64,000 nt of DNA from an uncultured Verrucomicrobia subdivision 3 bacterium (GTDB lineage: Bacteria; Verrucomicrobiota; Verrucomicrobiia; Limisphaerales; UBA11358): assembly GCA_903850425.1 (NCBI GenBank), contig CAINLR010000059.1, positions 1-64,000 of the forward strand. The letters run 5' to 3'. Below are positions 36,118 through 60,119 of the stretch, one piece after another (the first letter of the stretch is position 1; each line of letters starts with the position of its first letter). Under the pieces are notes generated by a model. The model had not been told where the DNA came from. It saw nothing but the letters and a program-made list of their open reading frames with translations, and made no database searches. The position numbers and the translations under genes are program-made.

Positions 36118-36154
36118 TAAAAACGACCCCACCGGGGCCGGGCTGCTGCCAAAT

Positions 36155-36196
36155 GCAGTTTGGGTGGGACGAACGTGGCAAAGGGTGTTTGAAATT
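36155..36196. repeat. Near-direct repeat, copy 1 (GCAGTTTGGG)
   Basis: This 42-bp stretch starting GCAGTTTGGGTGGGACGAAC matches 36616-36656 at 35 of 42 aligned positions with a one-base gap. The two copies are in the same orientation and bracket the repeat-filled gap (about 36.16-36.66 kb) upstream of the AT-rich insert. Confidence 0.75.
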
Positions 36197-36225
36197 TCGT
36201 GCGGGCTGCGGGCGCGATGAAAAAG

Positions 36226-36325
36226 CGGTGGAGGGCCACCGCAGTCCAGGACGCTGGCGCGCTGGCCGAGGACCGCCGAACCGCGCGGAGCGTCCTGGAG
36301 TGCGCCAGCCCTCTGGCGCTTTGGG
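36226..36325. repeat. Palindromic repeat (GTCCAGGACGC / GCGTCCTGGA arms)
   Basis: GCAGTCCAGGACGC at 36241-36254 is inverted as GCGTCCTGGAGTGC about 35 bp later. Further GC-rich hairpins (GCGCGCTGGCC, GCCAGCCCTCTGGC) extend the structure to about 100 bp. No reading frame with coding character covers it. Confidence 0.75.
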
Positions 36326-36362
36326 GCGGAGACGGAATGGCCGCAACCGCGTGGCCGGCTTA

Positions 36363-36460
36363 TTAACCACGAAACACACGAACTACACGAAAAACTGAAA
36401 CCCGGAAAGTCGGCTTCATTCGGTGCCCGGTTTCGTGTGTTTGGTGTATTTCGTGGTTAA
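36363..36460. repeat. Palindromic repeat (TTAACCACGAAACACACGAA arms)
   Basis: TTAACCACGAAACACACGAA on the left pairs with an inverted TTCGTGTGTTTGGTG...TTCGTGGTTAA on the right, roughly 98 bp end to end. The interior is AT-richer and carries no gene. This type of 'ACCACGAAACACACGAA' palindrome is familiar from verrucomicrobial genomes (from memory, not checked). Confidence 0.8.
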
Positions 36461-36615
36461 AATTTTCCCGGTTCCACTGACCCAGGGCAGCTCGCTCCGC
36501 GCCGGACTGGCGGATCGCGCAACCTTGGGCTCTGGGCCGGAATCCCGTTGTGATTCCGAAGCGGCGGTAGTCGAATGCTGGCCTTCTGCAAAGAGCCAAT
36601 CCGCCGATGACAAAG

Positions 36616-36656
36616 GCAGTTTGGGTTGGACGAGCGAGGCAAAGGACGCTTGAATT
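36616..36656. repeat. Near-direct repeat, copy 2 (GCAGTTTGGG)
   Basis: This is the second copy of the 42-bp unit at 36155-36196. It ends eight bases before the start of the AT-rich cyclase-like gene. The region 36461-36615 between the repeats is G/C-rich with short hairpins and no recognisable gene. Confidence 0.75.
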
Positions 36657-36663
36657 CACCTGA

Positions 36664-37422
36664 ATGGCAAATATTAAAATCAGTCAGCCAAAAATTCAGC
36701 GCGGCTTTGTAGCTTTGTTCGACATCATGGGGTTTAGCCAAATGATTGCGAACAATGATTTGGAGAAAAGCGCCAGAATTATTTTCGATGTCTTTCATCA
36801 AATTTTGAAGGACGTGCGTTATGAACAATACCCAATGAATCTTTACGATTTAATTCCTGAATACTTCATCTTTTCAGACTCCATTTTGGTCTATCAAATA
36901 CCGACGCTTAACGGATCAGAGGAGGAGGCTGATCTTTCACGATCATCTTTCATCAAGTTTTGCGGGCGGGTAACCGCCGAATTTCTGACGCGCGGCTTGC
37001 CTGTAAAAGGTGCGATTGGAAAAGGCGAATTTGCAATAATCGATGGTAAATCCTTCACAGGGAAATGCATTATTGATGCCCACACTTTGTCGGAAGCATT
37101 GCAATGCTCTGGCTGTGCAGTCGTGCCGACGCTCGAATCCGAGTTTTCAAAAGACGGGGAAACATTGGAAGGCTCATTTCAAGAGGACTTGATTTACTGG
37201 CAAGCACCACTAAAAAATTCACCTCCACAAAAACTTTTGATGCTAAATTTTTTGAGACATATCACCAAACCAGCGGGAGAAATTTCTAGAATGGCATTGA
37301 TCGAACAATTTAGCGCGCATGGAAAGGGATTGAATCTCGAGGTTCTGAAAAAGGTGTCTGAAACAGAAAAGTTTCTCAAGGAATGCAAGAAGCATATCAA
37401 AATCGAGCAAAAGGGAATTTGA
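36664..37422 (+). CDS. Class III nucleotidyl-cyclase-like protein
   Basis: The 252-residue soluble protein begins with GFVALFDIMGFSQMI (D20), followed by YFIFSDSILVYQ (D72) and GLPVKGAIGKGEF (about 111-123). The spacing of the two aspartates (52 residues) and the '(R/K)GAI..GE' strand resemble the metal-binding core of class III cyclases and related proteins, including those of bacterial signalling and defence systems. I cannot confirm activity: base-specificity residues were not identified. The gene is clearly AT-richer than its surroundings and follows a repeat-dense gap, consistent with horizontal gain. It ends 30 bp before the Sel1/protease gene, so co-expression is possible. Confidence 0.6.
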   Translation: MANIKISQPKIQRGFVALFDIMGFSQMIANNDLEKSARIIFDVFHQILKDVRYEQYPMNLYDLIPEYFIFSDSILVYQIPTLNGSEEEADLSRSSFIKFCGRVTAEFLTRGLPVKGAIGKGEFAIIDGKSFTGKCIIDAHTLSEALQCSGCAVVPTLESEFSKDGETLEGSFQEDLIYWQAPLKNSPPQKLLMLNFLRHITKPAGEISRMALIEQFSAHGKGLNLEVLKKVSETEKFLKECKKHIKIEQKGI

Positions 37423-37452
37423 CACTGAATTTTTGTGTATCAAAATCTTAGC

Positions 37453-38823
37453 GTGAAAATTAAATTTTTAGCAAGGGTGCTTGTCTTGATGATTTGGGGT
37501 TCAAGTATTTTTCAGCTTTTGGCTCAGCAGTCCGCAGCCTACTCCAAACGCCAACTTGAAGAACTGAAAGCCAAGGCTGAAAAGGGCGATGCCAAAGCAC
37601 AGTGTGAATTAGGTATGTCATATAATATGGAAGTTTTTATGGGCTATAATTCTTCAACTACAAATTATGTCGAATCTGTGAAGTGGTATCGTATGGCGGC
37701 AGAACAAGGCGATGCTGAAGGTGAATATTGGTTAGCAGGTTGTTACAAGGATGGAAAGGGACTCCCCAAGGATTGCTCGGAAGCGGAAAAATGGTATCTC
37801 AAAGCTGCGGAGCAAGGCCACGCACATGCCCAAACAAGTTTAGGTTACATGTATCGGGCAGGCGAATGCGTGCCTCGTAGTTATGCTGAGTCAACAAAAT
37901 GGTTTCGCAGAGCTGCAGCACGAGGCGATGCAGTTGCCCAGTTTCAGTTGGGAATGTATTACCAAAATGGCTGGGGAGTAGATACGAACTTGGTCGAAGC
38001 ATACAAGTGGTTCCTTTTGGCAAAGGAATCTTTTCAAGCAAAAAAGGAAGCGCAAAATTGCATTATAGACATTGATGAAGAATTATCTGCGTCTCAGCGT
38101 TCGGAGGGACAGCGCCTAGCCAATGAATTCAAATTAAGGCGTGGTCAACCTGAAATAATTTCAAAATCGCCAGTTACTACTGAAACTACTGAATCACCAA
38201 AGGCAACCGGCACTGCTTTTTTCATCACGAACGATGGTTATTTGATTTCCAATTATCACGTCGTCAAGGTTGCGGCCAAGGTGCGTTTGGTCACGGGCGC
38301 AGGCTTGATTGACGCGACGGTGGTGGCGGTGGATGCGGCGAATGATCTGGCGTTGCTCAAGGCGGCCGGCACGTTCGCACCATTGCCGGTGGCCACCAGC
38401 CGGGGCGTCAAACTGGGCGCAACCGTCGCCACGGTCGGTTTCCCGGCCACGGGCTTGCAGGGCTTTTCACCCAAGCTGGCCAAAGGCGAAATCGGCTCGC
38501 TGGCGGGCGCGGCGGATGATCCGCGCTATTTCCAGATCAGCCTGCCGGTGCAGCCGGGCAATTCGGGCGGGGCGCTGGTGGATGCACGCGGGAACGTGGT
38601 GGGCATCGTCGCGGCCAAACTGAACGCGGCGGCGGCGCTGGCAGCCACCGGGTCGCTGCCGGAGAATGTGAACTACGCGGTGAAAAGCAGCCTCCTCTTG
38701 AGCTTCCTGGAATCGGTGCCGGAAGTTTCCGCCAAACTCAAAGAGCCGAACACGAAGGACGAATCGTTTGAGGAGGTGGTGAAGTCCGCGCAGGCGGCGG
38801 CGGTGCTCGTTCTCGTTTATTGA
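37453..38823 (+). CDS. Secreted Sel1-repeat/trypsin-like serine protease chimera
   Basis: Starting at GTG 37453, the protein has about 456 residues with a signal peptide (FLARVLVLMIWGSSIFQLLA). Four Sel1-like repeats follow (about 25-190; e.g. SVKWYRMAAEQGDAEGEYWL, AEKWYLKAAEQGHAHAQTSL). The trypsin/DegP-like protease domain (about 245-440) has ISNYHVV (His), ANDLALL (Asp) and QPGNSGGALVD (Ser), a complete triad. Sel1 repeats bind proteins, so they may choose the substrate. Base composition switches from AT-rich in the Sel1 half to GC-rich from about 38270 on, suggesting a recent fusion. A GTG at 37435 in the same frame is an alternative start. Confidence 0.83.
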   Translation: MKIKFLARVLVLMIWGSSIFQLLAQQSAAYSKRQLEELKAKAEKGDAKAQCELGMSYNMEVFMGYNSSTTNYVESVKWYRMAAEQGDAEGEYWLAGCYKDGKGLPKDCSEAEKWYLKAAEQGHAHAQTSLGYMYRAGECVPRSYAESTKWFRRAAARGDAVAQFQLGMYYQNGWGVDTNLVEAYKWFLLAKESFQAKKEAQNCIIDIDEELSASQRSEGQRLANEFKLRRGQPEIISKSPVTTETTESPKATGTAFFITNDGYLISNYHVVKVAAKVRLVTGAGLIDATVVAVDAANDLALLKAAGTFAPLPVATSRGVKLGATVATVGFPATGLQGFSPKLAKGEIGSLAGAADDPRYFQISLPVQPGNSGGALVDARGNVVGIVAAKLNAAAALAATGSLPENVNYAVKSSLLLSFLESVPEVSAKLKEPNTKDESFEEVVKSAQAAAVLVLVY

Positions 38824-38902
38824 GTAGCAGCGGACGTGAGTCCGCTCATTCTAATTTCGGGGCGCGGGAAATGAGTTGGAGCCGACTCACGTCGGCTGCT
38901 AC
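38824..38902. repeat. REPIN-like palindrome (GCGGAC-GTCCGC family)
   Basis: The left unit is GTAGCAGCGGACGTGAGTCC with a perfect GCGGAC/GTCCGC stem. The right unit on the other strand is GTAGCAGCCGACGTGAGTCG. Outer tetranucleotides are GTAG at both ends and the units are inverted, the REPIN layout. It begins one base after the protease stop codon (TGA at 38821-38823). Confidence 0.87.
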
Positions 38903-39015
38903 TCACGACGGGACGAGTGTAACCGCTTTGCGGTTTAGAATGTTTCCAAGACGGCGATTTGATTGTGAACATCCCTTCCTTGCGCGGGATTGGATTCAGA
39001 GGGTAAAATTCCTCC

Positions 39016-59849: not shown

Positions 59850-60030
59850 TTTGAAACCGGCGGAAAAGTTTCCGCCCCTATCACAGTCAAATGTCTGGGA
59901 ACCCGGTGTGAATCCGGGACGGTTGCGCCACTGTAACGGCTACAAACTCCCAATGCCACCAAGCGAAAGCTCGGGAAGGCGGGAGTGAGGTTTGAAGCCG
60001 AAGTCAGGATACCGGTCTGATTGTGCTCGT
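59850..60030 (+). promoter_or_regulatory. Cobalamin (B12) riboswitch
   Basis: The aptamer core is present in order: GGGAACCCGGTGTGAATCCG (P4-P5 region), then GCGCCACTGTAACGGC, a variable stem-loop (59945-59990), and the B12-box-like AAGCCGAAGTCAGGATACCG near 59996-60015. A terminator with a U tract lies about 100 bp downstream (60120-60160). The switch should turn transcription of the following gene off when B12 is bound. Exact outer-stem ends are approximate. Confidence 0.92.
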
Positions 60031-60119
60031 CGCGGTTGAAGATTTTTCTTCAACCAACTTCTCCGCAAAGAGAAGGATGAGGCCAGCCCGACGAACTGTT
60101 TTCGTCAGGATTCGCTGAA

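Follow-up and report, generated by a model that had tools for sequence, protein, structure and literature searches.

The cyclase-like gene lies in an accessory insert

P0001, a class III nucleotidyl-cyclase-like protein of 252 residues, is encoded on the forward strand at 36664-37422 of the window (the whole stretch of 64,000 nucleotides that we analysed), with an ATG start codon. An HMGL-type, aldolase-like gene lies upstream. Downstream, beginning 12 bp after the P0001 stop codon, is a gene for a protein with Sel1 repeats and a Trypsin_2 domain (37435-38823, forward strand), and dnaE follows. The Pfam matches of this neighbour confirm the preliminary description, which had called it a Sel1 and trypsin-type protease. 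Also as described there, P0001 is AT-richer than the surrounding genes: its reading frame has a GC content of 0.415 and a GC3 of 0.447 (about 0.45), compared with a GC3 of 0.80 in the HMGL-type gene and 0.73 in dnaE.

Among relatives from the genus, the distance from the HMGL stop to the dnaE start is only 64 bp in L164, 74 bp in L166 and 127 bp in L171. In the window the same interval measures about 2.9 kb, of which about 2.8 kb is inserted, and homology to L171 picks up again at 38963. Because the spacing is so short in these relatives, the simplest reading of 36118-38962 is that of an accessory insert, with the P0001 gene as an accessory, lineage-specific and recently acquired part of it. 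Other relatives carry a different gene in the interval; L163, for example, has a 615-aa ORF. The ORF of 615/616 aa found there in L163 and L169 is serine-protease-like, which suggests that this is a general insertion spot.

The gap ahead of P0001 (36118-36663) is indeed dense in repeats, as first noted. It contains one direct repeat pair of 52 nt (81% identical) and four inverted-repeat pairs. The direct repeat, dispersed repeat A, has just two copies in the window, both on the forward strand, at 36142-36193 and at 36603-36654, the second ending about 10 bp before the P0001 start codon. The inverted repeats include one at 36222-36322 (34-nt arms, 79% complementary) and repeat B, of the AACCACGAAACACACGAA type, at 36363-36460 (30-nt arms, 87% complementary). 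On the far side of the insert, palindromic repeat C (38824-38902) lies directly 3' of the protease stop codon. The direct repeat, the AACCACGAAACACACGAA palindrome and the downstream GTAGCAGC palindrome have no further copies in the 64-kb window; shuffled controls gave on average 0.00, 0.10 and 0.00 matches respectively. Elsewhere in the window, a cobalamin riboswitch (RF00174, 72.6 bits) is found at 59872-60034.

P0001 has the predicted fold of a class III cyclase

The preliminary description had pointed to two aspartates and a (K/R)GAI..GE pattern with class III-like spacing, and both observations hold. D20 (codon 36721-36723) lies within FDIMGF, D72 (codon 36877-36879) within FSDSI, and K115-GAIGKGE122 (codons from 37006) within PVKGAIGKGEF; FTGKCIIDAHTL is a further stretch of the protein. 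The aspartates are 52 residues apart in P0001 and 44 apart in homolog L009, and the metal residues D102 and D146 of EaPycC are likewise 44 apart (PMC11224242).

With E values up to 10 allowed, P0001 had no match among the models of Pfam, NCBIfam or PADLOC, and thus none to PF00211, to DUF2652 or to the PycC-type cyclase model of PADLOC. The one profile that did match was phrog_23933, whose function is unknown (E 9.1e-6, residues 14-143); of the seven members of profile A1, six match it. The AlphaFold model, built on seven sequences, has a pLDDT of 79 and a pTM of 0.82. When this predicted structure was compared using Foldseek, the matches were class III cyclases, with E values down to 1e-6. 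The best VIA-align match was the guanylyl cyclase 3et6_B (Z 13.0 over 167 residues at 3.8 Å), and every structure listed by VIA-align was a class III cyclase. A family profile of 32 sequences, searched against all PDB sequences, found class III cyclases in seven of its eight matches, in register, though the matches are individually weak (best E 0.037). In a profile-profile comparison, the family matched four PF00211 proteins of the same genome (E 3.6e-5, probability 71%). Structure prediction, one of the checks proposed earlier, thus supports a class III nucleotidyl cyclase catalytic-domain fold for P0001.

The preliminary description had mentioned Pycsar-like systems as one setting for cyclases of this general type. 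P0001 resembles PycC in being a small class III-type protein with a similar fold in an accessory locus. The PycC cytidylate cyclase 8jsf is among the Foldseek matches (E 4e-5), and a distant relative, L074, lies two genes away from a CAP12/Pycsar-type TIR gene. However, other class III cyclases fit the model as well as PycC or better. The other six A1 members gave a single, chance-level match in PADLOC, to AbiEii (0.025). P0001 itself matched no PADLOC model, and the window holds no CNB, TM or TIR effector gene: where a cognate TM/TIR effector would be expected, P0001 has the HMGL-type gene, the Sel1-trypsin gene and dnaE as neighbours. We therefore consider it highly improbable that P0001 is a Pycsar pyrimidine cyclase, and membership of Pycsar is not supported.

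The family keeps the metal site but lacks the transition-state residues

Conservation was assessed in an alignment of 34 homologs and P0001. D20, G23 and D72 are invariant wherever aligned, so the suggested check of the aspartates in homologs came out in favour of a cyclase-type metal site. R/K115, G116, G121 and G133 are kept in 33-34 of the 35 sequences. The remaining active-site residues are different. In the alignment to 3et6, FGDTVNTASRME of P0001 lies opposite fGkalveAheleE. The position of the transition-state Asn (G133+4) is I137, and that of the Arg (G133+8) is T141; in the family the Asn site is mostly V/I and the Arg site is mixed. The base-selecting Lys, four residues before D72, is F68 in P0001 and is not conserved in the family. 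The roles of these residues in class III enzymes are general family knowledge, restated in PMC4886424.

Compared with class III nucleotidyl cyclases (PF00211; 3et6, Rv1625c), P0001 is thus alike in predicted fold, motif order and the two metal aspartates, and its family shares the R/K-G strand followed by the FG helix. It differs in having no Pfam match, an unconserved transition-state Asn and Arg, and F68 at the Lys position; the family also has an extra conserved C-terminal K..NT..F region. As the canonical Asn and Arg are both absent, we regard these proteins as a class III-like sister family and not as canonical cyclases, a status that the residues of P0001 do not support. The residues at the transition-state positions also mean that cyclase chemistry is not assured. 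The original cyclase reading therefore stands for the fold and the metal aspartate pair, for which the structural, profile and homolog evidence agrees, but not for the transition-state residues or the base-selecting Lys.

A published precedent is provided by the DUF2652 proteins, divergent class III-like proteins that lack the Asn and have been proposed to be active. They are mostly single-domain, cytosolic proteins of about 250 aa in which two metal aspartates are present and the Asn is replaced (PMC4886424). P0001 resembles them in each of these features. It differs from them in that the Arg reported for mycobacterial members (PMC4886424) is not kept and, again, no Pfam family is matched.

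These residues bear on whether P0001 is an enzyme at all. It could be a nucleotide sensor or scaffold without catalytic activity, which has kept the fold and the metal site but lost turnover, and which controls a partner through the NTP or cyclic nucleotide that it binds. The canonical Asn and Arg are missing throughout the family, and inactive cNMP cyclase domains have been reported in bacterial conflict systems (PMC7159879). On the other hand, a dead enzyme would not usually keep both metal aspartates invariant across some 30 diverse homologs, and the Asn-less DUF2652 proteins have been proposed to be active. We consider an inactive sensor somewhat unlikely.

Homologs are patchily spread

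The homologs, about 30 in number and with both metal aspartates kept, are sporadic. Profile A1 has a match in 16 of 320 genomes of the order, including the genome studied here and three others of its genus. Profile A3 has a match in 13 of 392 genomes of the phylum of the Planctomycetota homolog, L046. With P0001 as the query, tblastn matched one plasmid record and one phage record; with other family members, plasmids and phages gave little or nothing. P0001 and A2 found no relatives in viral contigs, and A1 has no stretch conserved enough to serve in a collection scan. We describe the P0001 family as unnamed, class III-like, single-domain, soluble and patchily spread.

Genes near the homologs include type I restriction (HsdS), DarT, SIR2-TPR, CAP12/Pycsar-type TIR, MBL and integron-cassette family genes. 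PADLOC counts of proximal and distal neighbours gave no useful contrast, so this list is descriptive and we do not claim enrichment in defence islands. In one subfamily (L027, L028 and L043), a conserved gene precedes the cyclase-like gene, with restriction, DarT or SIR2 genes alongside; in L027 the conserved gene matches the integron cassette protein family M1E1E6-like. The L034 contig ends inside its cyclase-like gene, which overlaps a gene for an MBL-fold protein; the operon also includes a deoxyribosyltransferase-like gene.

The neighbouring protease appears to be a chimera

The composition of the protease gene changes within one ORF. Its N-terminal part (37435-38202, forward strand), which encodes a putative signal peptide, identified by eye, and the Sel1 repeats, is AT-rich with a GC3 of 0.37. 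The part encoding the C-terminal Trypsin_2 domain (38203-38823, forward strand) has native composition, with a GC3 of 0.78. Nearly all full-length copies of the gene in other genomes show DNA homology from about 38203-38218 to the stop codon. GC3 was lower in the N-terminal part in 26 of the 30 copies measured, by 0.16 on average (Wilcoxon p 1e-7, a value that overstates independence because the copies are related). The composition of Sel1 repeats was considered as the cause of the switch and rejected, since other Sel1 ORFs of this genome have GC3 values from 0.41 to 0.79. The protease ORF looks like a chimera in which an N-terminal half of foreign origin has been joined to a native trypsin tail.

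Sel1-trypsin relatives occur in 174 of 313 genomes of the order (L115-L154, L179-L198). They are often 3' fragments that retain the VLVLVY end, and their N-termini and upstream genes vary. One P0002-like 3' trypsin remnant in the genome from which the window comes (L152; G000:C81, about 1525-2252) is 95% identical over aa 384-462. Immediately next to it are GTTTTGATCTCGCCCCCCCCGGGCAATTTGGTATT repeats separated by spacers, which look like a CRISPR array. A reading of the gene upstream of copy L120 as Trypco2 was dropped, as it has no Pfam match.

These findings raise the possibility that P0001 is unrelated cargo, carried by an AT-rich segment that was placed ahead of a native trypsin tail by recombination at an insertion site marked by repeats, and that its pairing with the protease is accidental. 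The GC3 switch within the protease ORF, in the same direction in most copies, speaks for this. The genes upstream of Sel1-trypsin loci also vary: eight of ten tested have no Pfam match, and one of the other two matches weakly. Against this, Sel1 or trypsin genes lie beside three independent cyclase-like homologs, one of them from another phylum. We think an accidental pairing is quite possible, though on balance we doubt it.

Six other Sel1-trypsin loci also have repeat A, in matching orientation and 1.9-2.9 kb ahead of the trypsin end; its homology there stops just short of the AT-rich part. In several loci, repeat B or C is found no more than about 310 bp 3' of the stop codon. It is conceivable that such loci form a recurring accessory-gene acquisition system in this bacterial order, with cassettes made of repeat A, a variable AT-rich cargo gene, an AT-rich N-terminus that varies and is joined in frame to a constant native trypsin tail, and a palindrome. 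The 3' trypsin segment would be the recombination anchor, the cyclase-like protein would be one cargo, and cargo and protease would form a signalling or defence pair. This proposal is speculative, and we rate it as distinctly improbable.

Does P0001 work with the protease?

In the closest homolog, L044, the cyclase-like gene overlaps (ATGA) a downstream Sel1 gene bearing a signal-peptide-like stretch; the contig (L029/L044) is 3.1 kb long and ends ahead of any protease domain. In the Planctomycetota homolog the next gene encodes Trypsin_2 without Sel1. The 34 family loci contain 474 ORFs, of which just three have such domains: two encode Sel1 repeats and one a trypsin domain. Each is an immediate neighbour of the cyclase-like gene, and in one case the two genes are divergent. 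By our own rough base rates about 0.2 adjacent ORFs would be expected against the three observed, although adjacency in one locus is partly forced by its contig of 3.1 kb. These neighbours make a functional pairing of P0001 and the Sel1-trypsin protein possible, but it is unproven. The proposal to look at the genes that accompany homologs thus had a mixed outcome: Sel1 or trypsin ORFs lie beside three of them, while L045 and L047 have no protease neighbour.

The preliminary description had remarked on a protease in place of a usual effector. This was fair, but such a neighbour recurs with homologs, and couplings of cyclases and trypsins are known in conflict systems (Kaur et al., 2020, PMC7159879). 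What the window has in common with these systems is the concept of linking a cyclase with a trypsin-like peptidase. It differs in that the two are separate genes and the protease is apparently secreted; inspection by eye of the ORFs at 30-44 kb showed no vWA, MoxR or VMAP genes.

The two genes might therefore form a single module in which the cyclase-like protein controls the protease or its substrate, whether P0001 is an enzyme or an inactive sensor. The 12-bp spacing, the same gene order in L044, the trypsin gene downstream in L046, the adjacency of all three Sel1/trypsin ORFs and the published couplings speak for this. However, upstream of most Sel1-trypsin genes there is a different partner or none, the majority of cyclase-like homologs have no protease, the putative signal peptide would place the two proteins in different compartments, and the numbers are small. 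A dedicated two-gene module is in our view somewhat unlikely.

A model for P0001

Based on these results, we consider P0001 to be probably a class III-like, non-canonical, nucleotide-handling accessory protein. We propose that it may bind a nucleoside triphosphate and a divalent metal at D20 and D72. It might then cyclize the NTP using non-canonical residues, for which R/K115, E/D138 and H/Y140 are candidates, or convert it in another way. The resulting nucleotide signal would serve a stress or anti-phage accessory module, and the protease encoded by the next gene would be its most likely functional partner in this genome. As the protease looks secreted and P0001 looks cytosolic, a direct relay between them is unexplained. 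We favour this model tentatively, at a little under an even chance.

The mosaic protease suggests that foreign genes can be joined repeatedly, in the same way, to the native tail of a secreted protease. A family that has both metal aspartates but lacks the transition-state residues is a candidate for a new nucleotide-handling enzyme, one that is thinly spread in accessory loci, several of which also carry restriction, TIR, SIR2 or DarT genes.
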